Shown in pieces: positions 3,058 to 55,975 of a DNA stretch of 57,019 nucleotides; positions within the stretch are counted from its first letter, which is position 1, and each line of letters opens with the position of its first letter. The stretch comes from Aequorivita lipolytica (lineage in GTDB: Bacteria > Bacteroidota > Bacteroidia > Flavobacteriales > Flavobacteriaceae): positions 1-57,019 of the forward strand of contig NZ_VORU01000015.1 in the NCBI RefSeq assembly GCF_007997135.1. The letters run 5' to 3'. The notes under the pieces were generated by a model. The model ran no database searches. It was given only the letters and a program-made list of their open reading frames with translations, and had not been told where the DNA came from. Made by a program: the position numbers and the translations under genes.

Positions 3058-3106
3058 GCTAATAGCTAATAGCTAATAGCTAATAGCTTAAGGCCTAAAG
3101 CATAAA
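3058..3106. repeat. 7-bp period array, unit GCTAATA
   Basis: Four perfect GCTAATA copies (3058-3085) are followed in the same phase by GCTTAAG, GCCTAAA and GCATAAA. That makes seven heptads that all begin with GC. The array ends 8 bp from the clpB stop codon (complement of 3115-3117). Confidence 0.9.
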
Positions 3107-3114
3107 AGCCACAA

Positions 3115-5715
3115 CTACTCAACTAAATCTTCTTGATTCCTAAACACAAGCGCATCGTCAAAACTGTCCAATAGAATGATACTATCCGTTGTTATTTTTC
3201 CGGAAAGTATCTCTTTACTTAATTCGTTTAGCACTTCGCGCTGTATTACTCTCTTCACGGGTCTTGCACCAAACTGTGGGTCGTATCCTTTTTCTGAAAG
3301 GTAAGTAATGGCCTCCGGTGTTGCATCTAGTACAATATTTTGTTTCATCAACATTTTGGAAACGCCTTTCAGTTGCAGCTCCACTATTCTGTGAATGTCA
3401 GTTTTTGAAAGCGGTGTAAACATTATTATGTCGTCTATACGGTTTAAAAACTCTGGGCGTACAGTTTGTTTCAATAGTGCAAGCACTTCCACTTTGGCGC
3501 CTTCCATTGCGGTTTCTGGGTCCTTTACGGCTTCAAAACGCTCCTGGATTATCTGGCTGCCCATATTACTGGTCATAATAATGATCGTGTTTTTGAAATC
3601 TGCAAGACGACCTTTGTTGTCCGTCAATCGGCCTTCATCCAAAACCTGCAATAAAATATTGAATGTATCTGGGTGTGCTTTTTCAATTTCGTCCAGCAAT
3701 ACAACGCTATATGGTTTGCGGCGAACGGCTTCAGTAAGCTGACCACCTTCTTCATAACCCACATATCCGGGAGGCGCACCCACTAAACGGCTCACGCTGT
3801 GGCGTTCTTGGTACTCACTCATATCTATACGTGTCATTGAGTTTTCATCGTCAAACATGTATTCTGCTAAGGCTTTTGCAAGCTCGGTTTTGCCAACACC
3901 CGTTGTTCCAAGGAAAAGGAAACTACCAATCGGTTTCTTTTCGTCCTGCAATCCTGCACGACTACGGCGAATGGCATCACTAACCGCAATAATTGCTTCA
4001 TTTTGCCCAACCACACGTTTGTGGAGGTGGTCTTCCAAAGTCAACAATTTTTCACGGTCGCTTTGTAGCATTTTTGTAACAGGGATTCCGGTCCATTTTG
4101 CAACCACTTCTGCAATATCTTCGCGAGTTACTTCTTCTTTAATCATTGAAGTACCTTCGTCGTTTTCGGCAAGTTGGGTTTCCAATTCATTTAAAGCTGC
4201 CTGTGCATCTTTGATTTTTCCATAACGAAGCTCTGCAACTTTTCCAAAATCGCCATCACGTTCAGCACGTTCGGCTTCTAGTTTGAATTCCTCAATCTGG
4301 GTTTTTAGATTTTGAACATTGTCTACAACCTCTTTTTCACTTTGCCATCTTGCGTTAAGTTCGTTGCGTTCTTCTTTTAAATTAGCCAAATCTGCGTGAA
4401 GTGATTTCAACTTCGTTTCGTCTTTTTCACGTTTTATGGCCTCTATTTCAATCTCAATCTGCATAATCTTTCTGTCCAAGACATCAAGTTCCTCTGGCTT
4501 GGAATTGATTTCCATTCTAAGTTTTGAAGCAGCCTCATCCATCAAATCAATAGCTTTATCGGGAAGGAAACGGTTTGTAATATAACGTTCAGAAAGCTCC
4601 ACGGCAGCAATAATTGCTTCGTCTTTAATACGCACCTTGTGGTGAGTTTCATATTTTTCCTTTATACCACGAAGTATTGAAATAGCACTTTCGGTATCGG
4701 GCTCGTCTACAACAACTCTTTGGAAACGACGCTCTAAGGCTTTGTCTTTTTCGAAATATTTCTGGTATTCGTCCAAGGTAGTAGCACCAATTGCACGCAA
4801 TTCACCTCGAGCAAGTGCGGGCTTCAAGATGTTTGCGGCATCCATTGCGCCTTGTCCGCCTCCAGCACCAACAAGGGTGTGTATTTCGTCAATAAATAGT
4901 ACGATATCGCCTTCACTGGAAGTTACTTCTTTGATGACGGCTTTCAAGCGTTCCTCGAATTCTCCTTTATACTTTGCCCCGGCTATTAGCGCGCCCATAT
5001 CCAAAGAATAAATTTCTTTGGTCTTTAAGTTTTCAGGAACATCGCCATCTACAATTCTGTGCGCCAAACCTTCGGCAATTGCAGTTTTACCAGTACCGGG
5101 TTCGCCAACCAGCATAGGGTTGTTTTTTGTTCTTCGCGAAAGGATTTGAAGGATTCGTCTAATCTCTTCGTCACGGCCAATCACTGGATCCAACTTACCA
5201 TCACGGGCAAGTTGGTTGAGGTTTTTGGCGTATTTGTTCAAAGAATTATAGGTTTCCTCAGCACTTTGGGAAGTAACACTTTCACCTCCTCGCAGTTCTT
5301 GAATTGCGGCTTTCATTCCTTTTTCGGTTACACCTTGGTCTTTCAAGCTTTGCGCAATGCTGCTCTTTGAGCCCAGAATCGCTAACAGAAGATGTTCAAT
5401 TGAGGCGTATTCATCGCCCATCTTTTTGGCAATGTTGCTGGCTTCAATTACCGTTTTATTGGCTTCGCGCGAAAGCATAATATCTCCGCCCGAAACCTTT
5501 GGAAAGCTTTCCAGTTGCTTGTCTAAAATCTGTTTTAGGGTAACCAAGTTGACGTTAAGTTTCTTTAAGATGAACGGGGTTACATTTTCATCTACCTCAA
5601 AAATTCCTTTGAGTATATGTTCGTTTTCAATCTGCTGATGGCCAAATCCTTGCGCTATTTGTTGCGCTTGCTGTATAGCCTCCTGACTTTTAATTGTAAA
5701 GTTGTTAAAATTCAT
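3115..5715 (-). CDS. clpB: ClpB disaggregase (HSP104 family)
   Basis: The 866-residue protein has full ClpB architecture: Clp N-domain repeats (about 1-145), AAA+ module 1 with Walker [10 protein letters not shown] (about 205) and Walker B VLFIDEIH, a middle coiled-coil domain rich in Glu, Lys and Arg (about 400-530), and AAA+ module 2 with Walker [10 protein letters not shown] (about 605), [13 protein letters not shown] and a C-terminal D2 small domain. The middle domain separates ClpB from ClpA and ClpC. It resolubilises aggregated proteins with DnaK in the cytoplasm. It is monocistronic; a small dyad upstream (5784-5796) may be regulatory. Confidence 0.97.
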
Positions 5716-5783
5716 ATATGAAGAAGTTTATTATTCGTTGTTTGTGGTAAGTTAATTTCAAATACAAAGCCACTTTAAAATTA

Positions 5784-5796
5784 CGACAAAATGTCG
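5784..5796. promoter_or_regulatory. dyad CGACA-N3-TGTCG upstream of clpB
   Basis: CGACAAAATGTCG has perfect 5-bp arms around AAA and lies 69-81 bp upstream of the clpB start, inside the divergent clpB/ytxJ region. Its position suits an operator or activator site. No regulator is identified. Confidence 0.35.
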
Positions 5797-5909
5797 GCTT
5801 AACCCCTTGGTTTAACAGACATTATGACTGCTTCAAAAATCATTACTTTATCATTTCTTTTAGAACAAAACTCCATTGAAACTTGTAGTTTTGAATAAAA
5901 GATATATTT

Positions 5910-6302
5910 ATGGGATTTTTTGACAAATTTAAGTCTACAAGAGACATCGCAAAAGAAGAAATAGTAGAAGTGCCTTGGCACGTGTTGGGCAAAATGGAGC
6001 AATTGGATGAAATAATTGAACAGTCCAAAACAAAGCCAGTTGCAATTTTTAAACATTCAACCCGCTGCGGAATTAGCCGAGGGGTTTTGAAGTTATTGGA
6101 GAAGAATTACAATCTTACTGATGATCAGCTAAAATTGTATTATCTCGATTTATTGCAAAACCGGGATATTTCAGCAGAAATAGCTTCCCGATTTAAAGTG
6201 CAGCACGAAAGCCCTCAAATGATTGTTATTAAAAATGGAGTAGTGGTGCATCACGATTCGCATAATTCTATTGAGGCCTCGCATTTGGCGAAATTTATTT
6301 AG
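5910..6302 (+). CDS. ytxJ: bacillithiol-system redox protein YtxJ (DUF2847)
   Basis: The 130-residue protein has a thioredoxin/glutaredoxin-like fold with a single active-site cysteine in STRCGISRGV (about residue 53) and the cis-Pro region ESPQMIVIKNG (about 102-112). This monothiol arrangement matches the YtxJ family, which is linked to the low-molecular-weight thiol bacillithiol that many Bacteroidota make. It probably reduces bacillithiol-protein mixed disulfides in the cytoplasm; that role is inferred from the family. A TAGTTTTG -7-like box at 5886-5893 precedes the start. Its stop lies 4 bp from the end of the convergent lipoprotein gene. Confidence 0.88.
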   Translation: MGFFDKFKSTRDIAKEEIVEVPWHVLGKMEQLDEIIEQSKTKPVAIFKHSTRCGISRGVLKLLEKNYNLTDDQLKLYYLDLLQNRDISAEIASRFKVQHESPQMIVIKNGVVVHHDSHNSIEASHLAKFI

Positions 6303-6305
6303 GAA

Positions 6306-7487: not shown

Positions 7488-7581
7488 AACGAAATTGATT
7501 TGGTTATGAAGGCTAAAATACAATAGTAATGCCAATTTTTATTCAAATATGTTTTTGAAATAATTTGAGTAAAAAAATAAA

Positions 7582-7630
7582 CCACGAATTCACGAATATT
7601 TTTTTTTAATAATAATTCGTGAATTCGCGG
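7582..7630. repeat. dispersed inverted repeat, copy A
   Basis: The left arm CCACGAATTCACGAATATT (7582-7600) and the right arm ATTCGTGAATTCGCGG (7615-7630) are near-perfect reverse complements around a T/A-rich loop. Related copies lie at 14301-14348 and 37035-37133. This copy sits directly downstream of fahA and could also act as its terminator. Confidence 0.8.
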
Positions 7631-7636
7631 ATAAAA

Positions 7637-8917
7637 TTATTGCTTGATCGCAGGAAGTAATTTAGTTCTGCATTCTCCAAAACCAATCCGTACGTCTTCA
7701 GTTTTGCAGTAACCCTTTAAAATTACAGTATCGTTATCGTTTATAAATTTTCTTTGAGAACCGTCGGAAAGCTTGATGGGCTTTTCACCGCGCCAGGTAA
7801 GTTCTAGCATAGAGCCATAAGAGTCTGGCGTTGATCCAGAAATGGTGCCACTACCCATCATGTCGCCGCTATTTACGTTGCAACCGTTAATAGTGTGGTG
7901 TGCCAACTGCTGGCTCATATTCCAGTACATATACTTAAAGTTTGAAGTGGATACTTTAGATTCAGCTCCGTTTTCAGGGGCAATGTAAACTTCTAAGTTT
8001 ATATCGTAACTTTTCTTTCCTTTATATTGAAGATAGGGCAGTTGCTCCATTTCAGGTTTTGGGCTCTCCACTTTAAAAGGTTGCAGGGCATCCAATGTTA
8101 CAATCCATGGAGAAATAGACGATGCAAAATTCTTCGCTAAAAATGGTCCAAGAGGTACATATTCCCACTTTTGGATATCGCGTGCGCTCCAATCGTTGAA
8201 AAGCACCAAACCGAAGATGTATTCTTCAGCTTCGTTTACTGGAATTGGTTCGCCCAAAACGTTCGCATCTGTGGTGATAAAAGCCATTTCTAATTCAAAA
8301 TCTACCAAATTAGAAGGACCAAAAACAGGTTCTGTAGCACCATCGGGCATAGTTTGTCCCCAAGGTCTGCGTGCATTGATTCCGCTCGGGATTATTGAAG
8401 AACTTCTTCCGTGGTAACCTACCGGAATGTGAAGCCAGTTTGGCATTAAAGCATTCTCTTTTCCACGGAACATCGTTCCCACATTTGTAGCGTGTTCCTT
8501 ACTGGAATAGAAATCGGTATAATCTCCCACTTGTACGGGAAGCTGCATTTCCACTTCGTCCATTGTGAAAAGGATGTGCTTTCTATGATCTTCGTTTTCG
8601 CGAAGTTTAGGATTTTCTTTATCGAAAATATCGGCAATTCGGTTTCGTACCAAGCGCCAGGTTTTTCTTCCGTCGCTAATAAAATCGTTCAATGTATCTT
8701 GAAGGAAAATATCATCTGTAAGCTCAATTCCTTTAAAATAACCCAATTGATGCAGGGCGCCAAGGTCAATGGCATAATCACCAATACGTGTTCCAATGGT
8801 AATAATATCATCTCGCGTCAAGAAAACACCAAAAGGTATATTTTGAATGGGAAAATCTGTATCTGGCGTTGTATCGAGCCAGGTTTTACGTTTGGGGTCG
8901 TTGGCAGTTATAGGCAT
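7637..8917 (-). CDS. fahA: fumarylacetoacetase
   Basis: The 426-residue protein has the two-domain FAH layout: an N-terminal SH3-like domain with IPFGVFLTRDD (about 26-36) and the catalytic FAA_hydrolase domain with PVGYHGRSSSI (about 165), FELEMAFI (metal-ligand Glu residues), NDWSARDIQKWEYVPLGPF and GSGTISGSTPDSYGSMLEL. It cleaves fumarylacetoacetate to fumarate and acetoacetate, the last step of tyrosine and phenylalanine catabolism. Other tyrosine-degradation genes are not in the window, so it appears monocistronic. Confidence 0.97.
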   Translation of the reverse strand: MPITANDPKRKTWLDTTPDTDFPIQNIPFGVFLTRDDIITIGTRIGDYAIDLGALHQLGYFKGIELTDDIFLQDTLNDFISDGRKTWRLVRNRIADIFDKENPKLRENEDHRKHILFTMDEVEMQLPVQVGDYTDFYSSKEHATNVGTMFRGKENALMPNWLHIPVGYHGRSSSIIPSGINARRPWGQTMPDGATEPVFGPSNLVDFELEMAFITTDANVLGEPIPVNEAEEYIFGLVLFNDWSARDIQKWEYVPLGPFLAKNFASSISPWIVTLDALQPFKVESPKPEMEQLPYLQYKGKKSYDINLEVYIAPENGAESKVSTSNFKYMYWNMSQQLAHHTINGCNVNSGDMMGSGTISGSTPDSYGSMLELTWRGEKPIKLSDGSQRKFINDNDTVILKGYCKTEDVRIGFGECRTKLLPAIKQ

Positions 8918-15484: not shown

Positions 15485-15514
15485 TTGCAAAAACTTCAAA
15501 AAGCCTTATCTTTG
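15485..15514 (+). promoter_or_regulatory. Bacteroidota-type promoter of the SRP RNA gene
   Basis: TTG at 15485-15487, a 19-bp spacer and TATCTTTG at 15507-15514 match the TTG-N19-TAnnTTTG consensus. Transcription would start about 5 bp later, at the first base of the RNA terminal helix. Confidence 0.85.
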
Positions 15515-15518
15515 CAGC

Positions 15519-15612
15519 GGCAAGTCCTACACAACCAGCTCCTGTTGAATCCTCCAGGGCGGGAACGCAGCAAAGGTAAATGGTCGTAGCGGTGTGATGT
15601 AGGTAGCTTGCC
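15519..15612 (+). ncRNA. ffs: signal recognition particle RNA, small bacterial type
   Basis: The RNA is about 94 nt. The ends GGCAAG (15519-15524) and CTTGCC (15607-15612) close the molecule, followed inward by CCTACAC pairing with GTGaTGTAGG. The apical part has the SRP domain IV signature: the asymmetric loop CAGG / AGCA, stem GCG-CGC and tetraloop GGAA at 15562-15565. It binds Ffh and guides ribosomes to the membrane with FtsY. A T-run at 15614-15619 after the closing helix should terminate transcription. Confidence 0.93.
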
Positions 15613-15651
15613 ATTTTTTGTGCGCTAAACTTTCGTCTGCAAAAAGAGCCA

Positions 15652-15725: not shown

Positions 15726-15760
15726 TTCCCTCACAACTCATCGCTCTTGACTCGTCGCTT
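15726..15760. repeat. 7-bp period array ending in CTC
   Basis: TTCCCTC, ACAACTC, ATCGCTC, TTGACTC and GTCGCTT are consecutive heptads, with CTC in the last three positions of the first four. They are degenerate but perfectly phased. Together with the direct repeat they fill the gap between ffs and the SDR gene. Confidence 0.7.
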
Positions 15761-18996: not shown

Positions 18997-20622
18997 ATGC
19001 TTTCAGTTTCAAATCTTTCGGTGCAATTTGGCAAAAGAGTATTGTTTGACGAAGTGAGCACACAGTTCACCACAGGCAATATTTACGGAATTATTGGTGC
19101 TAATGGTGCCGGAAAATCCACCTTGTTGAAAATTATTTCTGGCAAACAGGATCCTACGTCTGGCCAAGTTCATTTGGAAAAAGGCAAGCGCATGTCCGTT
19201 CTTGAGCAAAACCACAACGAGTACGATGACTTTATGGTGCTAGAAACAGTGGTTCGAGGCAACAAAGAATTATTTTCTATAAAAACCCAGATAGACAAAC
19301 TTTACGAAGACTATACAGATGATAATGCCGAAAAAATTGGTGAACTCCAAGTAGCTTTTGAAGAAATGAACGGTTGGAACGCAGATAGCGATGCTGCCGC
19401 CATGCTTTCAAATCTTGGTATTGAAGCGGGCCTTCATAGCACACTGATGAAAGATTTGGATGGAAAACAAAAGGTACGTGTTCTTTTGGCACAGGCGCTT
19501 TTCGGCAATCCAGATGTTTTGATTATGGATGAGCCTACTAACGATCTGGATTACGAAACGATAAATTGGTTAGAAAACTTTTTGGCGAATTATGATAACT
19601 GCGTGATTGTAGTTTCTCACGACCGTCATTTTTTAGATTCCGTTTGTACACACATTAGCGATATTGACTTTGGAAAAATAAACCATTACAGTGGCAACTA
19701 TACGTTTTGGTACGAAAGTAGTCAGCTTGCGGTACGCCAGCGTGCACAGCAAAATAAAAAGGCTGATGAAAAAAGAAAGGAACTGCAGGAATTCATAATG
19801 CGTTTTAGCGCAAACGTTGCAAAAAGTAAGCAAGCAACTTCGCGTAAAAAGATGCTAGAAAAACTTAATGTTGAAGAAATAAAACCTTCCAGCCGTCGCT
19901 ATCCCGCAATTATCTTTGAACGTGAGCGCGAAGCGGGAGATCAAATTCTGAATATTGAGAACCTTTCAGCTTCCATTGATGGCGAAACGATTTTCAAAAA
20001 CGTAGATATTAATTTAGCTAAAGGTGATAAAGTGGTTATTTATTCACGAGATTCTCGTGCGGCAACCGCTTTTTATGAAATATTGAATGGCCACGCAAAG
20101 CCTGATACGGGTTCATTTCAATGGGGAATTACCACAAACCAAAGTTATTTGCCACTTGATAATGAAGAATTTTTTAAGAATAATCTTTCGTTGGTAGATT
20201 GGTTGCGCCAATATGCTAAAACGGAAGAGGAACGCGAAGAAGTTTTTATTCGAGGTTTCTTGGGAAAAATGCTTTTCAGTGGTGAAGAGGCTCTAAAGAA
20301 AAGTAACGTACTTTCTGGAGGTGAAAAAGTGAGATGCATGCTTAGCCGAATGATGATGCTCCGTGCAAACGTACTAATGCTTGATGAGCCTACCAATCAC
20401 TTAGATTTGGAATCGATTACGGCATTCAATAATTCCTTGAAAAATTTTAAGGGAACTGTGTTGCTTACAACTCATGATCACGAGTTTGCGCAGACTGTTG
20501 GAACACGGGTTATAGAGCTCACTCCGAACGGCGCACTAGACCGCTATATGACTTTTGACGAGTATATGGGCGATAAAAAATTAAAGGAACTGCGCGATAA
20601 AATGTACGCGGTAGAAGCTTAG
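18997..20622 (+). CDS. ABC-F ribosome-associated ATPase, YbiT-like
   Basis: The 541 residues form two ABC domains with no membrane segments, joined by the ABC-F linker (about 245-320, FIMRFSANVAKSKQATSRKK). Alignment from memory is best with E. coli YbiT. NBD1 has Walker A GANGAGKST (about 36-44) and Walker B VLIMDEPTNDLD, but its signature reads LDGKQKVR. NBD2 has a normal signature LSGGEKVR and Walker B VLMLDEPTNHLD, but the Walker A position reads YSRDSRAATAF (about 348), with no GKS/T. One composite ATP site is therefore intact and the other degenerate. ABC-F proteins act at the ribosomal E site; the precise role is unknown. A TACTTTTG box is at 18972-18979. Confidence 0.93.
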   Translation: MLSVSNLSVQFGKRVLFDEVSTQFTTGNIYGIIGANGAGKSTLLKIISGKQDPTSGQVHLEKGKRMSVLEQNHNEYDDFMVLETVVRGNKELFSIKTQIDKLYEDYTDDNAEKIGELQVAFEEMNGWNADSDAAAMLSNLGIEAGLHSTLMKDLDGKQKVRVLLAQALFGNPDVLIMDEPTNDLDYETINWLENFLANYDNCVIVVSHDRHFLDSVCTHISDIDFGKINHYSGNYTFWYESSQLAVRQRAQQNKKADEKRKELQEFIMRFSANVAKSKQATSRKKMLEKLNVEEIKPSSRRYPAIIFEREREAGDQILNIENLSASIDGETIFKNVDINLAKGDKVVIYSRDSRAATAFYEILNGHAKPDTGSFQWGITTNQSYLPLDNEEFFKNNLSLVDWLRQYAKTEEEREEVFIRGFLGKMLFSGEEALKKSNVLSGGEKVRCMLSRMMMLRANVLMLDEPTNHLDLESITAFNNSLKNFKGTVLLTTHDHEFAQTVGTRVIELTPNGALDRYMTFDEYMGDKKLKELRDKMYAVEA

Positions 20623-20664
20623 GTTATAAGTTTATAGGTTTATCAGTTTAAAAGTTTATTAGTC
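20621..20664. repeat. 8-bp period array at the ABC-F stop codon
   Basis: Octads AGGTTATA, AGTTTATA, GGTTTATC, AGTTTAAA, AGTTTATT run on from the ABC-F stop (TAG 20620-20622). They are degenerate but phased. Confidence 0.65.
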
Positions 20665-20694: not shown

Positions 20695-20799
20695 TTACTG
20701 CTTACTGCTTACTGCTTACTGCTTACTGCTTACTGCTTACTGCTTACTGCTTACTGCTTACTGCTTACTGCTTACTGCTTACTGAATACTGAACACTCA
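20695..20799. repeat. (TTACTGC)12 heptamer array plus degenerate units
   Basis: Twelve perfect TTACTGC copies (20695-20778) are followed in phase by TTACTGA, ATACTGA and ACACTCA. The array ends 3 bp before the stop codon of the DUF2007 gene (which lies on the minus strand). A second array of the same unit lies at 21324-21393. Confidence 0.97.
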
Positions 20800-20802
20800 G
20801 TC

Positions 20803-21033
20803 TCATTCCTGAATTTCTTCCAAATACTCATCGATGGTGCTCTGCGCCTTTTCGTATTCGTCTTTTCTTATAAAAACCATCGTTTGGTTTGCGATGCTCA
20901 TTGTAAAACCTGCTCTCAGGCTGCTATCGTGATCGTTTCTTTCAATCGGGCTGATGCCTAATTCATTCAAACGGGCAACCAAGCCTTTCGCGATTAAAGT
21001 AGGTCCTGTGTAGATTCTTTTTGTTTCAGACAT
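20803..21033 (-). CDS. DUF2007 small protein (second of a pair)
   Basis: The 76-residue protein has the DUF2007 pattern: an IYTG start of the first strand, a helix [15 protein letters not shown], a second strand PIERND, and [20 protein letters not shown] at the end. The fold is ferredoxin-like and resembles PII or ACT signalling domains; family annotations read 'putative signal transducing protein'. It is paralogous to the gene 5 bp upstream in the same direction. There is no signal peptide, so it is cytoplasmic. Function is unknown. Confidence 0.85.
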
Positions 21034-21038
21034 AAATT

Positions 21039-21281
21039 TTATTCCTCTATGTCTTTCAAAAACACATCCAGTATTGGTTGTGCCGCTGCCAATTCGTCCT
21101 TGCGTACAAATACACGAACTTGATCGTCAAATTTATTTCCAGAGCCGAACATAACCCCACTCTGCTGGTCGTCCCGAAGTATTGGGGTAATATTTGCATC
21201 CTCTAATCTTCCCACAAGGGCTTCGGCCATAATATCTGATCCGGTATATATTCTAACTGTTTCTTCTTTATTTTCTGACAT
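21039..21281 (-). CDS. DUF2007 small protein (first of a pair)
   Basis: The 80-residue DUF2007 protein (VRIYTGSDIMAEALVGRLEDANI, PILRDDQQSG, VFVRKDELAAAQPILDVFLKD) is clearly a diverged duplicate of the next gene in the transcript. The two genes form a compact operon flanked on both sides by arrays of the same heptamer. The tandem arrangement fits a local duplication that might have been helped by the repeats. Confidence 0.85.
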   Translation of the reverse strand: MSENKEETVRIYTGSDIMAEALVGRLEDANITPILRDDQQSGVMFGSGNKFDDQVRVFVRKDELAAAQPILDVFLKDIEE

Positions 21282-21323
21282 TTCTATTTTAAATTATTGA
21301 GTTATAAATTTTAAAATTATATT

Positions 21324-21393
21324 TTACTGCTTACTGCTTACTGCTTACTGCTTACTGCTTACTGCTTACTGCTTACTGCTTACTGCTTACTGA
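21324..21393. repeat. (TTACTGC)9 heptamer array
   Basis: Nine perfect TTACTGC copies (21324-21386) and a terminal TTACTGA. The last unit is 2 bp from the stop of the next minus-strand gene. The sequence before it (AAATTATATTTTACTGC) resembles that before the 20695 array (GGTTATATTTTAAATTACTGC). Confidence 0.97.
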
Positions 21394-26061: not shown

Positions 26062-26096
26062 CTATTGGTTATTGGTTATTGTTTATTGTTTATTGT
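26062..26096. repeat. 7-bp period array, unit TTATTGK
   Basis: CTATTGG, TTATTGG, TTATTGT, TTATTGT, TTATTGT are phased heptads upstream of pheT, next to its putative promoter. Confidence 0.85.
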
Positions 26097-26153
26097 TTTT
26101 GGAAATGATGGATGCTGGAATACGGGTGACGGTAGCAAGTTGTTGTGATTCAC

Positions 26154-34676: not shown

Positions 34677-34704
34677 CCTAAAGCATATAGCCTACAGCCA
34701 AAAG
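34677..34704. repeat. 7-bp period array after T9SS gene 2
   Basis: CCTAAAG, CATATAG, CCTACAG, CCAAAAG start 2 bp after the stop codon (TAG 34673-34675). The units resemble the GCCTAAA/GCATAAA heptads at 3093-3106. Confidence 0.75.
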
Positions 34705-34785: not shown

Positions 34786-35631
34786 ATGAAAAAACTGATT
34801 TTATTGCTCACCGTTTTACTAGCGTTAGCCGCTTGTAAGAATGATAAAAAAACAACTGGGGAAGATCCACGAGTGGAAGGAACTGAGCTTGACTCTACCG
34901 GAATGGAGGCACCAGATGGCGAAGCAAAAAGTACCAGGACAAATCCCGAAAAAACATATCCGTCCCAACTTCAAAGTGTGTTTACCGCACACGGCGGTTT
35001 GCACCATTGGAAAAAGATGAATAATCTGTGCTTTGAAATGAAAGGTAAAAATGGGAATGAAACCCATACCGTTTCGTTACCAAATAGAAGAACCAAGATA
35101 GAGTCTAAAGATTGGTCAATAGGTTACGATGGCAAAGGTGTTTGGCTTCTTAAACACGATTTGGGTTATGAAGGCAATCCTGTATTTTATCATAATTTGA
35201 TGTTTTATTTCTATGCAATGCCTTTCATAATTGCTGATCCGGGAACCAATTATACCGCCGTTGAAGCAACAGAATTAGACGGAAAAATGTACAATGGTTT
35301 TAAAGTTTCATATAACGATGGCGTGGGTGATTCGTCCGATGATGAATACATTTTATATTTCGACCCAACAACCAATAAAATGGCGTGGCTGGCATATACC
35401 GTAACTTTCAAGGACCAAAAGAAAAGTAACGATTGGCACTATATAAAATATGACCAATGGCAAGAAGTAAATGGTCTTTTGCTGCCTGAAAAACTAACTT
35501 GGTGGAATGTGGAAAATGGAAAGCCCAAAAGCGAAAAGATGGATATTAAATTTAACAAAATAGCTGCCAGCGAAACAATGATGGATGCTTCTGTATTTTC
35601 AAAACCTACTGAAGCAGAGTATGTTAATTAG
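34786..35631 (+). CDS. flavobacterial lipoprotein, probably DUF6503
   Basis: The 281-residue lipoprotein has a signal peptide with LALAAC. After an acidic, Thr/Ser-rich linker (about 20-60) comes a beta-rich domain from about 65: HGGLHHWKKMNNLCFEMKGKNG, KDWSIGYDGKGVWLLKHD, YYILYFDPTTNKMAWLAYT-like strands, and WQEVNGLLLPEKLTWWN. The layout recalls outer-membrane-lipoprotein-sorting (LolA-like) beta folds and the DUF6503 family as I remember it. Function is unknown. The stop codon TAG is the first unit of the downstream heptad array. Confidence 0.78.
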   Translation: MKKLILLLTVLLALAACKNDKKTTGEDPRVEGTELDSTGMEAPDGEAKSTRTNPEKTYPSQLQSVFTAHGGLHHWKKMNNLCFEMKGKNGNETHTVSLPNRRTKIESKDWSIGYDGKGVWLLKHDLGYEGNPVFYHNLMFYFYAMPFIIADPGTNYTAVEATELDGKMYNGFKVSYNDGVGDSSDDEYILYFDPTTNKMAWLAYTVTFKDQKKSNDWHYIKYDQWQEVNGLLLPEKLTWWNVENGKPKSEKMDIKFNKIAASETMMDASVFSKPTEAEYVN

Positions 35632-35684
35632 TAATTAGTATCGAGTATCGAGTATCGAGTATTGAGTATTGAGTATTGAGTGTT
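35629..35684. repeat. 7-bp period array, unit GAGTATY, starting on a stop codon
   Basis: TAGTAAT, TAGTATC, GAGTATC x2, GAGTATT x3, GAGTGTT: eight phased heptads, the first of which contains the stop codon of the upstream lipoprotein. Confidence 0.9.
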
Positions 35685-37167: not shown

Positions 37168-38619
37168 ATGAACGAAGAAATAAGAAATCTAGACCCCAAA
37201 GCCCTTTGGAACAAATTTGCCGACCTGAACGCCGTACCGCGCCCCTCAAAAAAGGAGGAACGTGTTATTGCTTTTATGAAAGACTTCGGAAAAAGTCTGG
37301 GCCTTGAAACTATGGAAGATGAAGTGGGCAACGTTATAATCCGAAAGCCCGCTACAGCGGGAATGGAAGACCGCAAAGCTGTGGTTTTGCAAAGCCATCT
37401 TGATATGGTTCACCAAAAAAACAACGACACAGATTTTAATTTTGACACGCAGGGAATTGAAATGTACGTAGATGGCGATTGGGTTCGCGCCAGAGGAACA
37501 ACTTTGGGTGCCGACAACGGTTTGGGGGTTGCAACCATTATGGCAATTCTTGAAAGCAACGATATTGAGCATCCCGCAATTGAAGCGCTATTCACAATAG
37601 ATGAAGAAACCGGAATGACGGGCGCAAAAGGATTGAAAGGGGGTTTGCTGAAAGGTGACATCCTTTTAAATCTAGACACCGAAGAAGACGACGAAATAGG
37701 AGTAGGCTGTGCCGGTGGAGTAGATGTTACTGCTACTGGACCTTATAGTGAAGTTGACGCACCAAAAAATGCGAGTGCTGTCACCATTAAAGTAAAAGGC
37801 CTGAATGGCGGTCATAGCGGAATGGAAATTATTAAAGGTTTAGGCAATTCTAATAAATTAATGAACCGTTTGCTTTTCGCTACTAAAGAAACTATGCAAT
37901 TGGTAAAATTGGAAGGTGGAAGTCTTCGCAATGCCATTCCACGAGAAAGCGTTGCACAGGTTGTAGTTACTTCTGAAGAAGAATTTACAGCTGCTTTCGA
38001 AAAGATGAAGACAGCTATTATTGCGGAATACAAATCTTTAGAATCCAACCTTTCTATTACCGCTGAAAAAAGTAGTGAAACCTTCACCAAAACAATGGCT
38101 GAGGCAGATCAAAATAAATTTCTAAATGCAATGAATGCAGCTCATAATGGTGTTTACAGAATGAGCCCAGATATTGAAGATTTGGTGGAAACGTCCAATA
38201 ACATCGCGAAAGTTTCAGTTGCAAGTGGTAAAATAAAAATTGAATGTTTAACCCGTAGTTCCGTGGAATCCTCAAAAGATGTTTTAGCCAATGCCCTAAC
38301 TTCAGTTTTTGAACTTGCAGGTTTAGATGTGAAGCTAGCTGGCGATTATCCAGGTTGGGCGCCAAATATGGACAGTGCCATTTTAAAGGTTCTTGATAGC
38401 CTTTATCAAAAAATGAACGGCGAAAAAGCAAATGTAGCCGCTTGCCACGCTGGTTTGGAATGTGGTATTTTAGGTCAGAATTATCCCGAGATGGATATGA
38501 TTTCCTTTGGCCCAACAATTAAAGGAGCACATTCTCCCGATGAGCGCGCGAGCATTTCTTCAGCACAAAAGTATTGGGATTTTGTATTGGAAATTTTAAA
38601 GAATATTCCGAAGAAATAG
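37168..38619 (+). CDS. pepD: aminoacyl-histidine dipeptidase (M20)
   Basis: The 483-residue PepD-type peptidase hydrolyses Xaa-His dipeptides such as carnosine, and has broad dipeptidase activity. Metal and catalytic motifs are QSHLDMVHQKN (about 75), GADNGLGVA (about 115), DEETGMTGAKGL (about 148, catalytic Glu) and the C-terminal HAGLECG and SPDERAS segments. A lid domain is inserted at about 200-380. It is cytoplasmic. The stop codon is the first unit of a heptad array, followed by a terminator. Confidence 0.96.
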   Translation: MNEEIRNLDPKALWNKFADLNAVPRPSKKEERVIAFMKDFGKSLGLETMEDEVGNVIIRKPATAGMEDRKAVVLQSHLDMVHQKNNDTDFNFDTQGIEMYVDGDWVRARGTTLGADNGLGVATIMAILESNDIEHPAIEALFTIDEETGMTGAKGLKGGLLKGDILLNLDTEEDDEIGVGCAGGVDVTATGPYSEVDAPKNASAVTIKVKGLNGGHSGMEIIKGLGNSNKLMNRLLFATKETMQLVKLEGGSLRNAIPRESVAQVVVTSEEEFTAAFEKMKTAIIAEYKSLESNLSITAEKSSETFTKTMAEADQNKFLNAMNAAHNGVYRMSPDIEDLVETSNNIAKVSVASGKIKIECLTRSSVESSKDVLANALTSVFELAGLDVKLAGDYPGWAPNMDSAILKVLDSLYQKMNGEKANVAACHAGLECGILGQNYPEMDMISFGPTIKGAHSPDERASISSAQKYWDFVLEILKNIPKK

Positions 38620-38672
38620 AGACAAGAGCAAAGAGCCAAGAAGCAAGAGCCAAGAAACAAGAGCCAAGACCG
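38617..38672. repeat. 7-bp period array, unit AAGAGCC, starting on the pepD stop
   Basis: TAGAGAC, AAGAGCA, AAGAGCC, AAGAAGC, AAGAGCC, AAGAAAC, AAGAGCC, AAGACCG: eight phased heptads, the first containing TAG 38617-38619. The end AAGAGCCAAGACCG recurs at 15645-15658. Confidence 0.9.
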
Positions 38673-42426: not shown

Positions 42427-42466
42427 TGTGAATTTGTGAATTTGTGAGTTTGTGAATCTGTGAGTT
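42427..42466. repeat. 8-bp period array, unit TGTGAATT
   Basis: Five phased octads: TGTGAATT x2, TGTGAGTT, TGTGAATC, TGTGAGTT. They lie 6 bp upstream of the DUF721 start codon. Confidence 0.85.
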
Positions 42467-42485: not shown

Positions 42486-42510
42486 GTCACACTGAGCGCA
42501 GTCGAAGTGA
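42486..42510. repeat. dispersed GAGCGCAGTCGAAG element
   Basis: GTCACACTGAGCGCAGTCGAAGTGA, of the same family as 45726-45750, 51420-51443 and the copy inside the SpoU gene at 29527-29546. Its outer bases (TCACACT / AGTGA) form a short hairpin. A degenerate copy lies at 17386-17403. Confidence 0.8.
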
Positions 42511-42939: not shown

Positions 42940-43021
42940 GTTTAGTTTCTAAGTTTTCTTCGCGCCTTTGCGCCTTCGCGAGAGAAAATTACACGCAAAG
43001 TCGCCAAGTCGCCAAGTTTTT
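42940..43021. repeat. 8-bp period region between recF and the lipoprotein
   Basis: Phased octads GTTTAGTT, TCTAAGTT, TTCTTCGC, GCCTTTGC, GCCTTCGC (42940-42979), then AAGTCGCC x2 and AAGTTTTT (42998-43021). Two or three loose heptads (TGTTGAC, AATTAAC, ATATTGA) follow at 43025-43045, close to the recF stop. Confidence 0.65.
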
Positions 43022-45194: not shown

Positions 45195-45691
45195 TGGCTA
45201 CAGCAAATACAAATTTATCGGCTTACGATAAAAACACAATCCCAAACGCGAAGAACTTTCGGTTTGGGATTGTTGTTTCAGAATGGAACCACGATATAAC
45301 AGAAGGCATGTTTCAAGGCGCGTTTGATGCTTTGAAAGACTGTGGAGCCATTAATGAAAACATAGTTCGTTGGAATGTTCCAGGCAGTTTTGAACTTATT
45401 TTTGGCTGTAAGCAGATAACTCAAAGTTATGATATGCTCGATGCCGTAATTGCAATTGGAAGTGTTATTCAAGGCGAGACAAAACACTTCGACTACGTTT
45501 GCGAAGCTGTTGCACAAGGCATAAAAGACTTAAACGTACACGGAAATATTCCCGTTATTTTCTGCGTTCTTACCGATAACAATATGCAGCAAGCCATTGA
45601 CCGCAGCGGCGGCAAACACGGTAATAAAGGCACAGAAGCAGCAATAGCTGCAATAAAAATGGCACAACTTCGGAAAGACGCACGATTTTAG
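45194..45691 (+). CDS. ribH: 6,7-dimethyl-8-ribityllumazine synthase
   Basis: The 165-residue lumazine synthase catalyses the penultimate step of riboflavin synthesis. Motifs: FGIVVSEWNHDITEGMFQGAFDAL (about 24), VPGSFELIFGCKQI (about 56), AIGSVIQGETKHFDYVCEAVAQGI (about 86, active-site His) and PVIFCVLTDNNMQQAIDRSGGKHGNKGTEAA near the end. Coupled to the TPR gene by an ATG overlapping the TAA. The last codons and the TAG stop are part of a heptad array. Confidence 0.98.
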   Translation: MATANTNLSAYDKNTIPNAKNFRFGIVVSEWNHDITEGMFQGAFDALKDCGAINENIVRWNVPGSFELIFGCKQITQSYDMLDAVIAIGSVIQGETKHFDYVCEAVAQGIKDLNVHGNIPVIFCVLTDNNMQQAIDRSGGKHGNKGTEAAIAAIKMAQLRKDARF

Positions 45692-45821
45692 ATTTACGAT
45701 TGTAGATTTATCTTAAATATTTCGTTGTCACCCTGAGCGCAGTCCAAGTGCCGAATCCCAAATCTCAAGTCTTCAATCCAGATAACGGATAACTGTTAAC
45801 CGACAACTGAGAACGGTACAG
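45682..45821. repeat. three heptad arrays and a dispersed element after ribH
   Basis: ACGATTT, TAGATTT, ACGATTG, TAGATTT (45682-45709) cover the ribH stop. A GAGCGCAGTCCAAG element follows at 45726-45750. Then CCGAATC, CCAAATC, TCAAGTC, TTCAATC (45751-45778). After a 1-bp shift, AGATAAC, GGATAAC, TGTTAAC, CGACAAC, TGAGAAC (45780-45814), all ending AAC. Almost the entire gap is repeat DNA. Confidence 0.8.
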
Positions 45822-49675: not shown

Positions 49676-49678
49676 CCG

Positions 49679-50695
49679 ATGCGAAAAATTTTCAACAAAC
49701 TTATTTATTGGGGCAATCTGCTCGCGGCATTTCTTTTGTTGATTTCATTTATTCTGCCTTATTTACCGCCAAAAACATTTCCCACGCTATCACTGCTGAG
49801 TTTGATAGTTTCATTGCTGATAATTGTGAATATTCTCTTTGCAATTTACTGGGCAATACAGCTTCGGCGCAGGTTTTTTATTTCTTTTACAGTTCTTTTC
49901 ATTTCCTATTTTTATTTCAATGTTTTTTATGAAGTTTCTTCAGAAGTAGATGCCGCTCAGTACAAAAATACACTTAACGTGCTGTCCTATAACGTACGGC
50001 TCTTTAATGCTTATGAAAAAAACCCGAAGAATGACGCGTCACAAATAATTTCTGAAATACTTACAGAGCAGAATCCTGATGTGGTCTGTGTTCAAGAATA
50101 TTACAAACCTAATAAAATAGATTTTTCAACCTATCCCTATCAATATATTCACTTTAAATCCATAAAGGCAAAACTGGGGCACGCAATCTTTTCAAAATAT
50201 CCACTAATTAATACTGGCGGTTTCGATTTTGAAGATACTTCAAACAATACGCTCTATGCAGATGTGTTAAAAGGAACGGATACCATTCGCATCTACAGCG
50301 TTCATTTGCAGTCTCTCGGTATTATTCCGCGGGTTCGGTTTTTGCAGGAAAGCGATAACGAAAAACTTAGAAAGCGCATCTCAGGCGCGTTTGAAAAGCA
50401 ACAAAGCCAAATTGTGGCAATTCTACAGCACAAAAGTAAAATTGCGCACCCAGTAATGATTTGTGGCGATTTGAACAATACACCATTTTCATACACCTAT
50501 AGAAAGCTAAAGGATGATATGCAGGATGCCTTCCGCGAACGCGGTAATGGTTTGGGAACTACCTTTAAATTTGAAAAATTCCCGATGCGTATCGATTACA
50601 TTTTCGCTTCACCAGGCTTAGATCTTCTTTCGTTTGATACTATGGAGAAAACTTTTAGCGATCATTTTGCCGTGCGGGCTACCGTGGGTTGGTAA
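49679..50695 (+). CDS. membrane-anchored EEP-family phosphatase/nuclease
   Basis: The 338-residue protein has two to three N-terminal spans (about 8-75), then an endonuclease/exonuclease/phosphatase domain: LNVLSYNVRLFN (about 100), DVVCVQEYY (about 138), IYSVHLQS (about 203), CGDLNNTPFSYTY (about 262) and DYIFASPGLD with SDHFAVRATV at the end. All catalytic residues of the family are present (Asn, Glu, Asp, Asn, Asp-His). Substrates in this family include DNA, phosphoinositides and sphingomyelin; none can be chosen. It is last in the mutL operon, 3 bp after rhomboid 2. Confidence 0.93.
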   Translation: MRKIFNKLIYWGNLLAAFLLLISFILPYLPPKTFPTLSLLSLIVSLLIIVNILFAIYWAIQLRRRFFISFTVLFISYFYFNVFYEVSSEVDAAQYKNTLNVLSYNVRLFNAYEKNPKNDASQIISEILTEQNPDVVCVQEYYKPNKIDFSTYPYQYIHFKSIKAKLGHAIFSKYPLINTGGFDFEDTSNNTLYADVLKGTDTIRIYSVHLQSLGIIPRVRFLQESDNEKLRKRISGAFEKQQSQIVAILQHKSKIAHPVMICGDLNNTPFSYTYRKLKDDMQDAFRERGNGLGTTFKFEKFPMRIDYIFASPGLDLLSFDTMEKTFSDHFAVRATVGW

Positions 50696-50696
50696 A

Positions 50697-50731
50697 TTAA
50701 TTCTGAATTCTGAATTCTAAATTAAGAATTG
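50697..50731. repeat. 7-bp period array, unit TGAATTC
   Basis: TTAATTC, TGAATTC x2, TAAATTA, AGAATTG overlap the stop codon of the minus-strand WbqC gene (50717-50719) and start 2 bp after the EEP stop. The same unit, in inverse orientation, occurs within mutB at 53871-53905. Confidence 0.8.
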
Positions 50732-51346
50732 TAAAGATTGTCTTTCCAAATAACTCAACGCATTCGGCCCTTCATTAAAAAGTAAATCCAAAACCGAAAG
50801 ATTCGGTAAAAATGGATGGTTTGCCTCATGTACTTGGGTGTAGGCTTCCGCTTGAAAATCTGATTTTATTTTTGCGTTAATTAGAAACCGAAGGTCTGTA
50901 ATTTCAGGCGTGGTTTCAAAAGAAGTAGTTTTTGAAATTTCAACGTCTATTCCTATTAATTCACACAAAACTTCAAATAGTTTTAGATTGTGTTCCATTA
51001 AATTTTCAACCGGTTCTGTAAATAAATATTCCAAATCATCTTCGTAAAATTCAAAAAAAGGCGAAGTACGGTAAGCACTCTGCAAGCTTTTCCAGTGATG
51101 TTCCTGCCATGGAAAATCATTTTCAACCATTACTTCCTTCGTTTTTTGTCGCTTTCCGGTTTTGTTGTGTTTTATGGGAATATTCAAAAGCAATTTCCCG
51201 TTGCTGTGTGCAATAAACATACGGGTTCGGTAGGTTTGTTTTTGATAATTATCTTCAACTTCAAAAAAAACCTTTTCAGCCTGCGCAACCGCAGCCATTT
51301 GTTCAATGGACGGAAAATAGGAGGGATGGAGAAGGATTGTTTTCAT
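50717..51346 (-). CDS. WbqC-family protein
   Basis: I start at Met 51346 (MKTILLHPSYFPSIEQMAAVAQ, 209 residues), because the upstream frame is encoded by a hexamer repeat. The WbqC family motif is clear: ILLHPSYFPSI at the start, RMFIAHSNGKLLLNIPIKH, WQEHHWKSLQSAYRTSPFFEFYEDDLEYLF (about 95-125), and NLSVLDLLFNEGP near the end. These proteins are often in polysaccharide biosynthesis clusters and have an unresolved enzymatic role. It lies alone between two plus-strand operons. Confidence 0.9.
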   Translation of the reverse strand: MKTILLHPSYFPSIEQMAAVAQAEKVFFEVEDNYQKQTYRTRMFIAHSNGKLLLNIPIKHNKTGKRQKTKEVMVENDFPWQEHHWKSLQSAYRTSPFFEFYEDDLEYLFTEPVENLMEHNLKLFEVLCELIGIDVEISKTTSFETTPEITDLRFLINAKIKSDFQAEAYTQVHEANHPFLPNLSVLDLLFNEGPNALSYLERQSLQFLI

Positions 51347-51377
51347 TTCGAATTTTAAAGCCTTCAAAAATAGAAAA

Positions 51378-51443
51378 GAAATTGAAATCGAAAACGAAAT
51401 TGGAATCGAAATCGAAATTGTCACCCTGAGCGCAGTCGAAGGG
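51378..51443. repeat. hexamer array plus GAGCGCAGTCGAAG element
   Basis: Seven phased hexads (GAAATT, GAAATC, GAAAAC, GAAATT, GGAATC, GAAATC, GAAATT; 51378-51419) are directly followed by GTCACCCTGAGCGCAGTCGAAGGG-type sequence (51420-51443; given here in parts as GTCACC and CTGAGCGCAGTCGAAGGG). They occupy the region between the divergent WbqC and udk genes. Confidence 0.85.
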
Positions 51444-51488
51444 TTTAACTTGATTCCTTTTCCCTACATTTGTGTAAATAAAAAAAAT

Positions 51489-52438: not shown

Positions 52439-53805
52439 GCAAATTTTTATTTGAAGATTTTGATGAAGTTTCCGCAAAACAGTGGAAGCAGCAAATACAG
52501 TACGATCTAAAAGGTGCAGACTATAACCAAACCTTGGTTTGGCAAAGTCCCGAGGGCATCAGCGTAAAACCTTTTTACCACGAAGACGATTTTAAAGAAG
52601 AATTTCAACCCATTCCGGGGCAACCACAGTCGTGGAAAATTGCCCAAGAAATTTTTGTTGATGACGAAAAGATAGCAAACAACATAGCTTTAGATGCTGC
52701 AAACCGAGGGGCAGAAGCTATAATTTTTACCGCCGCAGAAGATTTTGAACCAAGAACCGTATTTAAAGATTTTCCGTTTGAAACAACTTCCATTTATTTT
52801 GAACTTACATTTCTCTCCGAAGCATTTTACGGCAAGCTCGTTAAATTCTTTTCACAGAAAAATGCAACCGTTTATTACAATATAGATTTAATAGGAAACC
52901 TCGCCCGCACGGGCAACTGGTTTCATAATTTGAAAAAAGACCACGAAATTCTAGATAGTATTTTACAGAAACACGATTCAGAAAAATTACTATCGGTTGA
53001 TGCTACTTTATATCAAAACGCAGGCGCAAATATGGTTCAGCAATTGGCGTATGCTTTGGCACACGCCAATGAATACTTAAACCACATTGCGAGCGAAGCG
53101 AAGCAATCTGTAAGTCTTACATTTTCTTTAGCCACTGGCCCAAACTACTTCTTCGAAATAGCAAAAATCCGCGCGCTACGTAAACTTTATGCAACTTTAG
53201 CAAAGGAATATGGTGTAAATGAAACCTGCCACATCATCGCCACACCTTCAAAACGCAACAAAACCTTATACGATTACAATGTAAACATGCTGCGTAGCAC
53301 CACCGAATGTATGAGTGCCGTGCTGGGCGGAGCCGATACGGTTTGTAATTTGCCGTATGATGAATTATATCACAAAAGCAACGAATTCGGAGAACGCATT
53401 TCGCGCAACCAATTGTTGATATTAAAACACGAAAGCTACTTTGATGCGGTGAGCAACCCTGCCGATGGCACCTATTATATTGAAAGCTTAACGGTTGAAC
53501 TTGCCGAAAAAGCGCTTCAACTTTTCAAAGAAATTGAAAAAGGTGGAGGCTTTCTTCAGCAATTAAAAGAAGGAACAATCCAGAAGAAAATTAATGATAG
53601 CGCCGAAAAGGAGCAACAACTTTTTGACAGCGGCGAAATGAAACTCTTGGGCACCAATTATCACCCCAACAAAAGCGACCGAATGAAAGACAATTTGGAG
53701 CTTTTTCCTTTCGTAAAACGTAACCCAGTCAAAACCCTAATCGTCCCCATCATTGAAAAACGCTTGGCAGAAAAAGTTGAACAGGAAAGAATAAGCAATG
53801 AGTAG
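52435..53805 (+). CDS. mutA: methylmalonyl-CoA mutase small (beta) subunit
   Basis: The 456-residue protein is the catalytically silent MCM subunit, a TIM barrel like MutB but without a B12-binding domain. The start [31 protein letters not shown] is typical of Bacteroidota MutA. Later motifs include [22 protein letters not shown] (about 230) and [25 protein letters not shown] (about 285). Residues about 217-226 ([10 protein letters not shown]) are encoded by a dispersed palindrome. It overlaps ftsB by 4 bp and mutB by 8 bp, so the heterodimer genes are translationally coupled. Confidence 0.96.
53086..53107. repeat. palindromic element inserted in frame in mutA
   Basis: ATTGCGAGCGAAGCG followed by AAGCAAT has ATTGC / GCAAT ends and an internal GCGA / CGAAGC partial symmetry. 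I recognise this sequence from memory as one that recurs between genes in many unrelated bacteria. Here it is coding. Confidence 0.7.
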
Positions 53806-55975
53806 AAAAGATTTACAGAATATTAGCCTGAAAAGGACGGATGACGGAAGACAGAATACGGAAGCTGATAAAAATTCTGAATTCAGAATTCAGAATTCAG
53901 AATTGAAAGATGAAGCATATTCGACTGCTGAAAATATTGATTTAAAAAAAGAATATAGCAAAGAAGATATAGCCAATTTAAAACACCTAAACTTCGTAGC
54001 CGGAATAGCACCAAACCTTCGCGGACCATACTCCACAATGTACGTCCGCCGTCCGTGGACCATCCGCCAATACGCAGGTTTTTCAACAGCAGAAGATAGC
54101 AACGCATTTTATAGAAGAAACCTAGCCGCAGGCCAAAAAGGGCTTTCGGTAGCCTTCGATCTTGCCACACATCGCGGTTACGACAGCGATCACGAAAGGG
54201 TAGAAGGCGATGTAGGGAAAGCAGGCGTAGCAATAGACAGCGTGGAGGATATGAAAATCCTATTCGACCAGATTCCGTTAGACAAGATGAGCGTTTCCAT
54301 GACGATGAACGGCGCTGTGCTTCCCATTATGGCGTTCTATATTGTTGCAGCTGAAGAGCAGGGCGTTTTGCCAAAAGATTTGGAAGGAACCATCCAAAAC
54401 GATATTCTTAAAGAATTCATGGTGCGCAACACTTACATCTATCCGCCCAAGGAATCGATGAAGATAGTAAGCGATATTTTTGAATATGCTTCTAAAAATA
54501 TGCCCAAGTTCAACAGCATCTCTATCTCTGGCTACCATATGCAGGAAGCAGGAGCCACGTCAGATATTGAACTTGCTTATACCCTTGCAGACGGTCTAGA
54601 ATATATTCGCACAGGTATAAAAGCGGGAATGGACATAGACACTTTCGCGCCACGCTTATCCTTTTTCTGGGGAATCGGGATGAACCATTTTATGGAAATC
54701 GCAAAAATGCGCGCCGCCAGAATGCTTTGGGCGAAAATTGTAAAACAGTTCAACCCCAAAAGCGAAAAATCCTTAGCATTAAGAACCCACTGCCAAACCA
54801 GCGGTTGGAGCCTTACCGAGCAAGATCCGTTCAACAACGTTGCTCGCACGGTTATTGAAGCCACAGCAGCAGTTTTTGGTGGTACACAATCCTTGCACAC
54901 AAATGCTTTAGATGAAGCTATTGCTTTACCAACAGATTTCTCTGCACGTATTGCCAGAAATACTCAGATTTTTCTTCAAACCGAAACCCAAATCACCAAG
55001 ACCGTTGACCCTTGGGCAGGAAGTTATTATGTGGAAAATCTTACCAACGAAATCGCCAACAAAGCCTGGGCGCTAATAGAAGAAGTAGAAGAACTTGGCG
55101 GAATGACCAAAGCCATTGAGGCCGGCATTCCCAAACTTCGCATAGAGGAAGCTTCAGCCAGAAAGCAAGCGCGTATAGATAGTGGACAAGATATAATTGT
55201 AGGAGTAAACAAATACCGCCTTGACAAAGAAGACCCACTACAAATCCTGGACGTGGACAATCAAAAAGTCCGTACTTCACAGATTGAACGTCTCAACCAT
55301 ATAAAAGCCACGCGCGATACCAAAAAGGTAGATAAAGCCCTTGCAGATATTACCCAATGTGCAAAGACAGGTCAAGGAAATTTACTAGCTTTAGCCGTAG
55401 AAGCTGCCCGCCACAGGGCAACCCTCGGCGAAATCTCTACCGCAATGGAAAAAGAATTCGGCAGGTATAAAGCACAAATTAGATCTTTTAGCGGCGTGTA
55501 CAGTAAAGAAATTAAGAAAGACGAAAGTTTTATAAAGGCTCGAGAAATGGCAGACAAGTTTGCTGAGCTTGAGGGCCGTCGTCCACGTATTATGATTGCC
55601 AAAATGGGGCAGGACGGTCACGACCGCGGTGCCAAAGTTGTTGCAACAGGCTATGCCGATGTAGGTTTTGATGTGGACATTGGTCCCCTTTTTCAAACGC
55701 CAGCAGAAGCCGCAAAACAAGCAGTAGAAAATGACGTACATATCCTCGGCGTTTCCTCCCTTGCCGCAGGCCACAAAACCCTCGTGCCACAGGTTATTGA
55801 AGCCCTAAAAAAATACGGCCGCGAAGATATTATGGTTATCGTGGGCGGCGTAATACCACACCAAGATTACCAATACCTTTTTGATGCAGGCGCAGTTGCC
55901 GTTTATGGTCCCGGAACTCGGATTAGCGATGCTGCTATTGAGATGTTGGGGATTTTGATTGAGGGGGTGGAGTGA
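53798..55975 (+). CDS. mutB: methylmalonyl-CoA mutase large (alpha) subunit
   Basis: The 725-residue B12 enzyme interconverts succinyl-CoA and methylmalonyl-CoA. It has a TIM barrel with [28 protein letters not shown] (about 68-95), [13 protein letters not shown] and a C-terminal cobalamin-binding domain with [13 protein letters not shown] (about 605-617), [11 protein letters not shown] and [14 protein letters not shown]. Residues about 13-36 of the N-terminal extension are encoded by ten phased DNA heptads (53836-53905) and give the 7-residue peptide echo [14 protein letters not shown]. The pathway serves propionate metabolism or succinate-propionate exchange. It overlaps mutA by 8 bp. Confidence 0.97.
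53836..53905. repeat. ten phased heptads inside the mutB coding region
   Basis: GACGGAT, GACGGAA, GACAGAA, TACGGAA, GCTGATA, AAAATTC, TGAATTC, AGAATTC, AGAATTC, AGAATTG run without a phase break. The AATTC part is the inverse of the intergenic array at 50697-50731. It is the only heptad array in this window within a conserved gene. Confidence 0.88.

Follow-up and report, generated by a model that had tools for sequence, protein, structure and literature searches.

Short tandem arrays with a period of seven base pairs recur along a contig of Aequorivita lipolytica, and the question is whether this shared period points to a process that moves in steps of seven nucleotides. The window, that is, the whole stretch of 57,019 nucleotides that was analysed, is contig 7 of a 3.31-Mb draft assembly in 47 contigs. 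The original prediction, made from the letters of this contig, had listed thirteen arrays with units that it took to be unrelated, and it proposed a polymerase, repair or template-copying process with a 7-nt step. The STRR sequences of heterocystous cyanobacteria are tandem heptanucleotides and in that respect resemble these arrays.

All thirteen intervals are 7-periodic. The best self-match lag is 7 (alone or level with 14) in ten of them and 14 in the other three, which begin at 15726, 38617 and 45682; permuting the letters gives P values for lag 7 that nowhere exceed 0.013, post hoc values since the intervals had already been picked from the sequence. Tandem Repeats Finder (TRF), run on the window with a score of 30, returned a row of period 7 or 14 for ten intervals and missed the degenerate arrays at 15726, 34677 and 45751. 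Arrays are given here without strand unless one is named. At 3058..3106, on the 3' side of a minus-strand ClpB-like gene, (GCTAATA)x4 grades into GCNNANA units, and a degenerate, 14-periodic heptad array lies at 15726..15760 (0.67 at lag 14, 0.50 at lag 7). The window's two largest arrays have a common word, TTACTGC, and flank one block of two small ORFs: about 13 copies stand at 20695..20799 (TRF and lag test) and about 10 copies on the far side of the ORFs at 21324..21393. TTATTGG/TTATTGT units follow at 26062..26098 (TRF and lag test), a degenerate TAAAGCC family that begins at a stop codon at 34677..34704 (lag test), and GAGTATC/GAGTATT at 35625..35684, with the stop codon of the upstream gene inside the array. 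AAGAGCC forms a heptad/14-mer array between a stop codon and an intrinsic terminator at 38617..38672, and another heptad/14-mer array, ACGATTTTAGATTT, spans the stop of the lumazine synthase gene at 45682..45710. Two degenerate heptad runs, of AAATCYC type and then of GNNAACN type, occupy 45751..45816, and AATTCTG is repeated right after a stop codon at 50697..50735.

The sites described with period 8 (20621, 42427 and 42940) or period 6 (51378) are also real by the lag test. They correspond to a GTTTATNN-type array right after the stop of an ABC-F gene at 20624..20663 (tested over 20621-20663), the array TGTGAATT at 42427..42463 and two inverted arms of period-8 units (CTTCGCGC ... CGCCAAGT) at 42940..43017, these latter two found by TRF as well, and a period-6/18 array at 51368..51420 that adjoins a REP-like palindrome. 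The interval 53836..53905 is not intergenic: its two heptad arrays on the plus strand, GACGGAA and AATTCAG, belong to a methylmalonyl-CoA mutase ORF, where they are read in frame as part of the N-terminal linker. The small SRP RNA was the sole Rfam match of the window at gathering scores.

A histogram of periods against shuffled sequence had been proposed as a check, and it is not flat. The own-genome sample consisted of the window and 58 further stretches, 981,204 bases or about 30% of the genome; arrays were scored with +1 for a match and -2 for a mismatch, and one order-3 Markov shuffle served as background. Among 149 arrays, 58 have period 7, 18 have period 14 and 15 have period 8, compared with 1, 1 and 0 in the shuffle, and any other period up to 30 accounts for at most 10 arrays. 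The arrays are mostly intergenic: 47 of the 58 with period 7 have less than half of their length inside called ORFs, as drawn by a simple, crude caller whose predicted starts are unreliable. A second count was confined to exact intergenic runs with at least 13 matches, and gave 0, 0, 4, 43 and 7 runs for periods 4 to 8, two in total for periods 9 to 13, and 12 for period 14. Since the counts at neighbouring periods are low, period 7 stands out as a sharp peak with a steep fall to either side. One small contig, L039, holds 9 of the 58 period-7 arrays.

A similar preference appears in relatives. In 80 of their loci (1.50 Mb), whose titles are mostly genera of Flavobacteriaceae, periods 7, 21, 14, 8 and 6 gave 22, 10, 9, 7 and 7 arrays, and the shuffled counterpart gave none for the first four and 2 for period 6. 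The single-contig congeners G005, G007, G008 and G022 (400 kb) have 15 arrays of period 7, 2 of period 14 and 2 of period 8, with only 2 or 3 period-7 arrays in three of these four genomes. Chance or an assembly artefact can hardly be the answer, because the shuffled controls yield about one array, by which chance is refuted as the source of the period, and because the pattern is present in single-contig genomes.

Heptamers are reported as the most abundant intergenic tandem repeats in a survey of 7006 genomes, where their function is given as unknown (PMC6344855), and Mrazek et al. 2007 found heptanucleotides to be the top class in most genomes (as cited in PMC4679880) and put forward 7 nt as a possible contact length of a DNA polymerase (cited in PMC4679880 and PMC4692102). 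These heptamer simple sequence repeats, as described, have 7-base units in tandem, are mainly intergenic and are abundant in many prokaryotes (PMC6344855, PMC4679880, PMC4692102). The present arrays have a 7-base unit above chance, are mostly intergenic and change by whole units, the last at the species level and at one locus. They differ from the general class, as surveyed (PMC6344855), in that many words are used per genome and are common to unlinked loci, and in that orthologous gaps of one genus were followed.

In Flavobacterium psychrophilum, the units of 12 VNTR loci include eight heptamers of varied sequence and two octamers; nearly all are intergenic, as here, and they serve there as typing markers (PMC4501049). 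Eight of the 12 loci vary, with one to nine repeats, among 53 isolates, four of these eight with heptamer and two with octamer units (PMC4501049). TAACTGA repeats were reported in five Bacteroidetes including A. sublithincola (PMC4679880). The statement that flavobacteria offer no described equivalent with varied units is therefore not supported, and since varied flavobacterial heptamer arrays with strain variation are already in print, the arrays of this genome belong to a known kind. The TAACTGA direct repeats of marine Beggiatoaceae, Cyanobacteria and Bacteroidetes are intergenic heptamers like those described here; however, the main genome of that system is reported to use one word, mostly just upstream of start codons, whereas the own genome has many words, often at stop codons and in both orientations (PMC4679880). 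No exact triple copy of TAACTGA occurs in the window, and one such array lies elsewhere in the genome (contig 47). The GGGAATC and GGGGA(C/T)T heptamers of Xanthomonas and Nostoc likewise lie between genes, have heterogeneous units with some positions kept, and vary in length and sequence in gaps shared by two related species (PMC4692102). They are described as G-rich quadruplex formers (PMC4692102), whereas the units here are AT-rich (G+C 0.32); no window array has a run of three or more G in all of its units, whichever strand is read, and the run at 45751 has one CCC.

The fate of arrays was followed across the genus at orthologous gaps, each in up to 28 genomes (27 besides the own genome), a comparison between species and not between strains. 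The ABC-F protein of the window shares 95% identity with its counterpart in Aequorivita sp. CIP111184 and 91% with the one in A. viscosa. Arrays were gained, lost and changed. In the gap after the gene at 49679-50695, the length from the stop codon to a shared motif is 80, 73, 66 and 66 bases in G023, G014, G026 and G007, which carry 5, 4, 3 and 3 CAATTA[CGA] units between near-identical flanks. This is the one array at which the 7-nt step is seen directly here, in that the species differ by 7 or 14 bases; arrays of period 7 or 14 are present in this gap in 8 of 27 genomes. After the ABC-F gene, period-7 arrays (score at least 12) occur in four of 28 genomes with related yet different words (TTACTGC, TACTGAC, CACTGAC and TACCGAC), and the other 24 genomes are without one at that score. 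Most of these 24 gaps show a hairpin terminator instead, as judged by eye.

Past the gene at 37168-38619, an M20 peptidase according to Pfam, an intrinsic terminator follows the stop codon almost directly in G002, G006, G010, G012 and G026. Heptad words are inserted between the stop and the terminator in about 16 of 27 genomes, judged by eye; certain species have CAAGANT there, others have CACGANT, and two have CAGGANT. An array of period 7 or 14 lies within 600 bases of the lumazine synthase stop in 14 of 28 genomes, with many different words, and after the gene at 34786-35631 in three of 21. G015, counted among those 14, has a lumazine synthase gene with an inner stop.

Heptads are also tolerated inside a protein. 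The methylmalonyl-CoA mutase linker was parsed at 25 of 27 loci, and in-frame heptads near the N terminus were found in 13 of the 25 species at score 9 and in 11 at score 12, compared with means of 0.08 (maximum 1) and 0.02 in codon-shuffled linkers; words include AAGACGG, AATTCAG and AACCAGA. A scan of periods 4 to 16 in these 25 linkers revealed none except 7 and 14. Because heptads occur in frame in a protein linker, a 3'-UTR context is not needed, and this observation together with the turnover at gaps favours a process acting wherever length is free, which fits better than a regulatory site at 3' ends.

Overall, the arrays are probably neutral products of slippage, in which the 7-nt step is real and the preference for certain words unexplained, and members of the ordinary prokaryotic heptamer class. 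Their history can be potentially described as follows. Slipped-strand replication or unequal exchange may lengthen and shorten arrays by whole units of 7 bases, at times 14, and the arrays would persist where length is free, i.e. between genes and in the disordered protein linker. Point mutation would alter units and new variants would be amplified, by which the sequence drifts and the phase is kept. In this scheme the step would come from slippage, and the reuse of words may stem either from a preference for certain sequences or from short ectopic copying that does not extend beyond the array. The proposed 7-nt mechanism thus survives in part: there is one preferred step, far above composition-matched sequence, in the own genome, in congeners and in other Flavobacteriaceae, and species differ by whole units of 7 or 14 bases at one orthologous array, but the period alone does not single out a polymerase, repair or template-copying process. 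Stability in F. psychrophilum counts against the slippage reading, since four of the eight heptamer loci were reported invariant among the first 11 isolates and one isolate unchanged over 12 passages (PMC4501049).

The units are not mutually unrelated, as had been supposed. Fourteen identical word pairs were found among 53 own-genome items (one item per word and stretch), whereas composition-matched intergenic 7-mers gave a mean of 3.0 pairs and a maximum of 10 in 5000 draws, none of which reached 14, and shuffling within units gave 2.6 pairs with a maximum of 8 in 2000. Unmatched intergenic 7-mers gave a mean of 4.0 and a maximum of 18 in 5000 draws (P 0.0034), and in a separate 2000 draws this null peaked at 19, above the observed 14. 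All 14 pairs are still present when L039 is removed. Own-genome words are matched by 8 of 27 items from other genera compared with 2.1 expected (P 0.0007), by 5 of 13 items from other Aequorivita compared with 1.5 (P 0.008), and by 4 of the 7 distinct heptamer words of the F. psychrophilum VNTRs compared with 1.2 (P 0.015). The cross-genus test omits period-7 arrays with AATACTC as main word in stretches chosen partly by matches to AATACTC, in which array density is biased, and it gives no excess when one substitution is allowed (20 of 27 compared with 17.9). A search of 149 family genomes for exact triple copies covered three words, each with its reversal, which may itself be a word in use, as control: AATACTC was found in 14 genomes compared with 5 and AATTCAG in 9 compared with 0, but TAACTGA in 3 compared with 5, which counts against a general rule. 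The recurrence of the same words at unlinked loci and in other genera is the new detail of this analysis.

Pure local slippage predicts no shared words, and the recurrence therefore weighs against the main reading. An alternative is that an existing array templates new ones by template switching or repeat-limited gene conversion, in which case the 7-base period would be inherited rather than remade. The excess of same-word pairs is consistent with such ectopic copying, as are a slight excess of one-substitution pairs (62 compared with 47.9, P 0.02), the clumping of words within single genomes (TAACTGA at several loci in G141, AATTCAG in G091) and the likeness of neighbours, since the arrays at 20695 and 21324 have the same word, and the two sides of the block share another in G015, although the pair in G023 differs by one base. 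However, words are common to different genera too, and same-word arrays resemble each other in their flanks (mean 8.07 over 15 pairs) no more than different-word arrays do (8.15), so that ectopic copying appears conceivable but rather doubtful as the main source. The same flank comparison led to the rejection of a longer mobile or duplicated segment as the carrier of the copies.

A vocabulary common within the genome and across genera would also be expected if the heptads were functional sites that act at gene ends and are recognised by a nucleic-acid-binding protein, as has been suggested for TAACTGA. The 67 distinct words are less self-structured than composition-matched intergenic 7-mers (-3.65 compared with -4.42, sd 0.34), and 32 of 75 arrays have a stop codon no more than 10 nt away, compared with 19.1 by random placement, although arrays that supply the stop codon themselves could account for this enrichment. 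The sense strand of arrays is A-rich (43 compared with 18; background 171 compared with 119), and the words lean towards CTC/GAG and TCA/TGA. Of 12 words seen in at least two tandem gaps, four keep one orientation relative to transcription; this, the A-rich sense strand and the enrichment beside stop codons stand against the slippage reading. The other eight words are found in both orientations, on which ground a strand-specific RNA signal was rejected, and this mixture, the orthologous gaps without arrays or with other words, and the heptads within a coding linker all argue against functional sites, which are judged quite unlikely. Stop codons were likewise dismissed as the source of the words, with a weak excess of 70 in 134 strand readings over 59.9 (sd 5.2).

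Another possible scheme suggests that heptads are arms or by-products of dispersed REP-like palindromes, whose hairpins would stall replication and provoke slippage. After 37168-38619, the ends of the insert are inverted copies in several species, where heptads, by eye, form inverted arms around a spacer; the genome has one Y1 transposase gene; and of 30 REP-like copies, 10 have a short-unit array no farther than 100 nt away, compared with 3.0 expected (maximum 9 in 1000). These 10 neighbours come from few places, however (four in L039, two each in L031, L032 and the window), and the best 14-mer matches of 91 arrays average 10.82 in inverted and 10.98 in direct orientation, with controls of 10.38 and 10.44. 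Therefore, hairpin anatomy was rejected over the 91 arrays as a general rule and kept for the gap after 37168-38619, and an origin of the arrays from REP-like elements seems unlikely.

To return to slippage, the preferred reading, it does not by itself supply the number seven. Slippage guided by homology only predicts no single preferred period, and the step of 7 is thereby left without explanation. A MutS-type gene is present in the genome, so the arrays do not simply reflect MutS loss, and loss of mismatch repair was rejected as a simple cause. Loops over about four bases escape MutS, which may set a lower limit on unit size; this limit by itself does not choose 7. It is improbable that a copying or slippage activity with a 7-nt step and a preferred vocabulary across genera writes the arrays, the words being a readout of the machinery and not of local sequence.

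To the published record these results add turnover at orthologous gaps, a species difference of 7 or 14 bases, in-frame linker heptads and word recurrence. The sharing of words is a constraint that any simple slippage account must satisfy. Few unexplained regularities of bacterial DNA are as plain as the preference for seven. The genus has many species, complete genomes and gaps that align easily, and would thus permit direct measurement of the step, of how arrays arise and of which words are preferred.

An imperfect, REP-like palindrome around CCTGAGCGCAGTCGAAGG lies at window positions 42490, 45731 and 51424. When up to 4 mismatches are allowed, 30 copies are present in the 981 kb formed by the window and the 58 sampled stretches of the same genome, and 10 of these 30 have a short-unit array no more than 100 nt away. 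One gene for a Y1-type (IS200/RAYT-like) transposase is located at G000:C27:121245-121589, and its product is a candidate for the enzyme that moves the REP-like palindromes. In some species, the N-terminal linker of methylmalonyl-CoA mutase seems to contain a sequence similar to this palindrome, apparently in frame, with the peptide VTLSAVEGL.

REP-like copies also recur on contig 25 of the genome (L039, 4.3 kb), which carries nine period-7 and two period-8 arrays, in blocks with differing words (TTCCTAA, TGCCTAA, AGCCTAA, and AACTTTG). A second dispersed palindrome, CCACGAATACACGAAT...ATTCGTGTATTCGTGG, whose arms are 8-base repeats, is found at window 7506-7666 and on several other stretches.

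Two small ORFs on the minus strand (window 20800-21320) are flanked by both TTACTGC arrays, and in G015, another genome of the genus, arrays with one common word likewise stand on both sides of this block. A small SRP RNA (RF04183, 104.1 bits) is encoded on the plus strand at window 15511-15617.

Two related sequence families, AACGTTTATGTGTATGA... and GCCAACACCGTGTATAAGC..., separate small ORFs in many intergenic copies on L033, L035, and L011:1-1519 (contigs 19, 21, and 3 of the genome under study, respectively). These copies look like recombination sites, candidates for those of a gene-cassette (integron-like) array.
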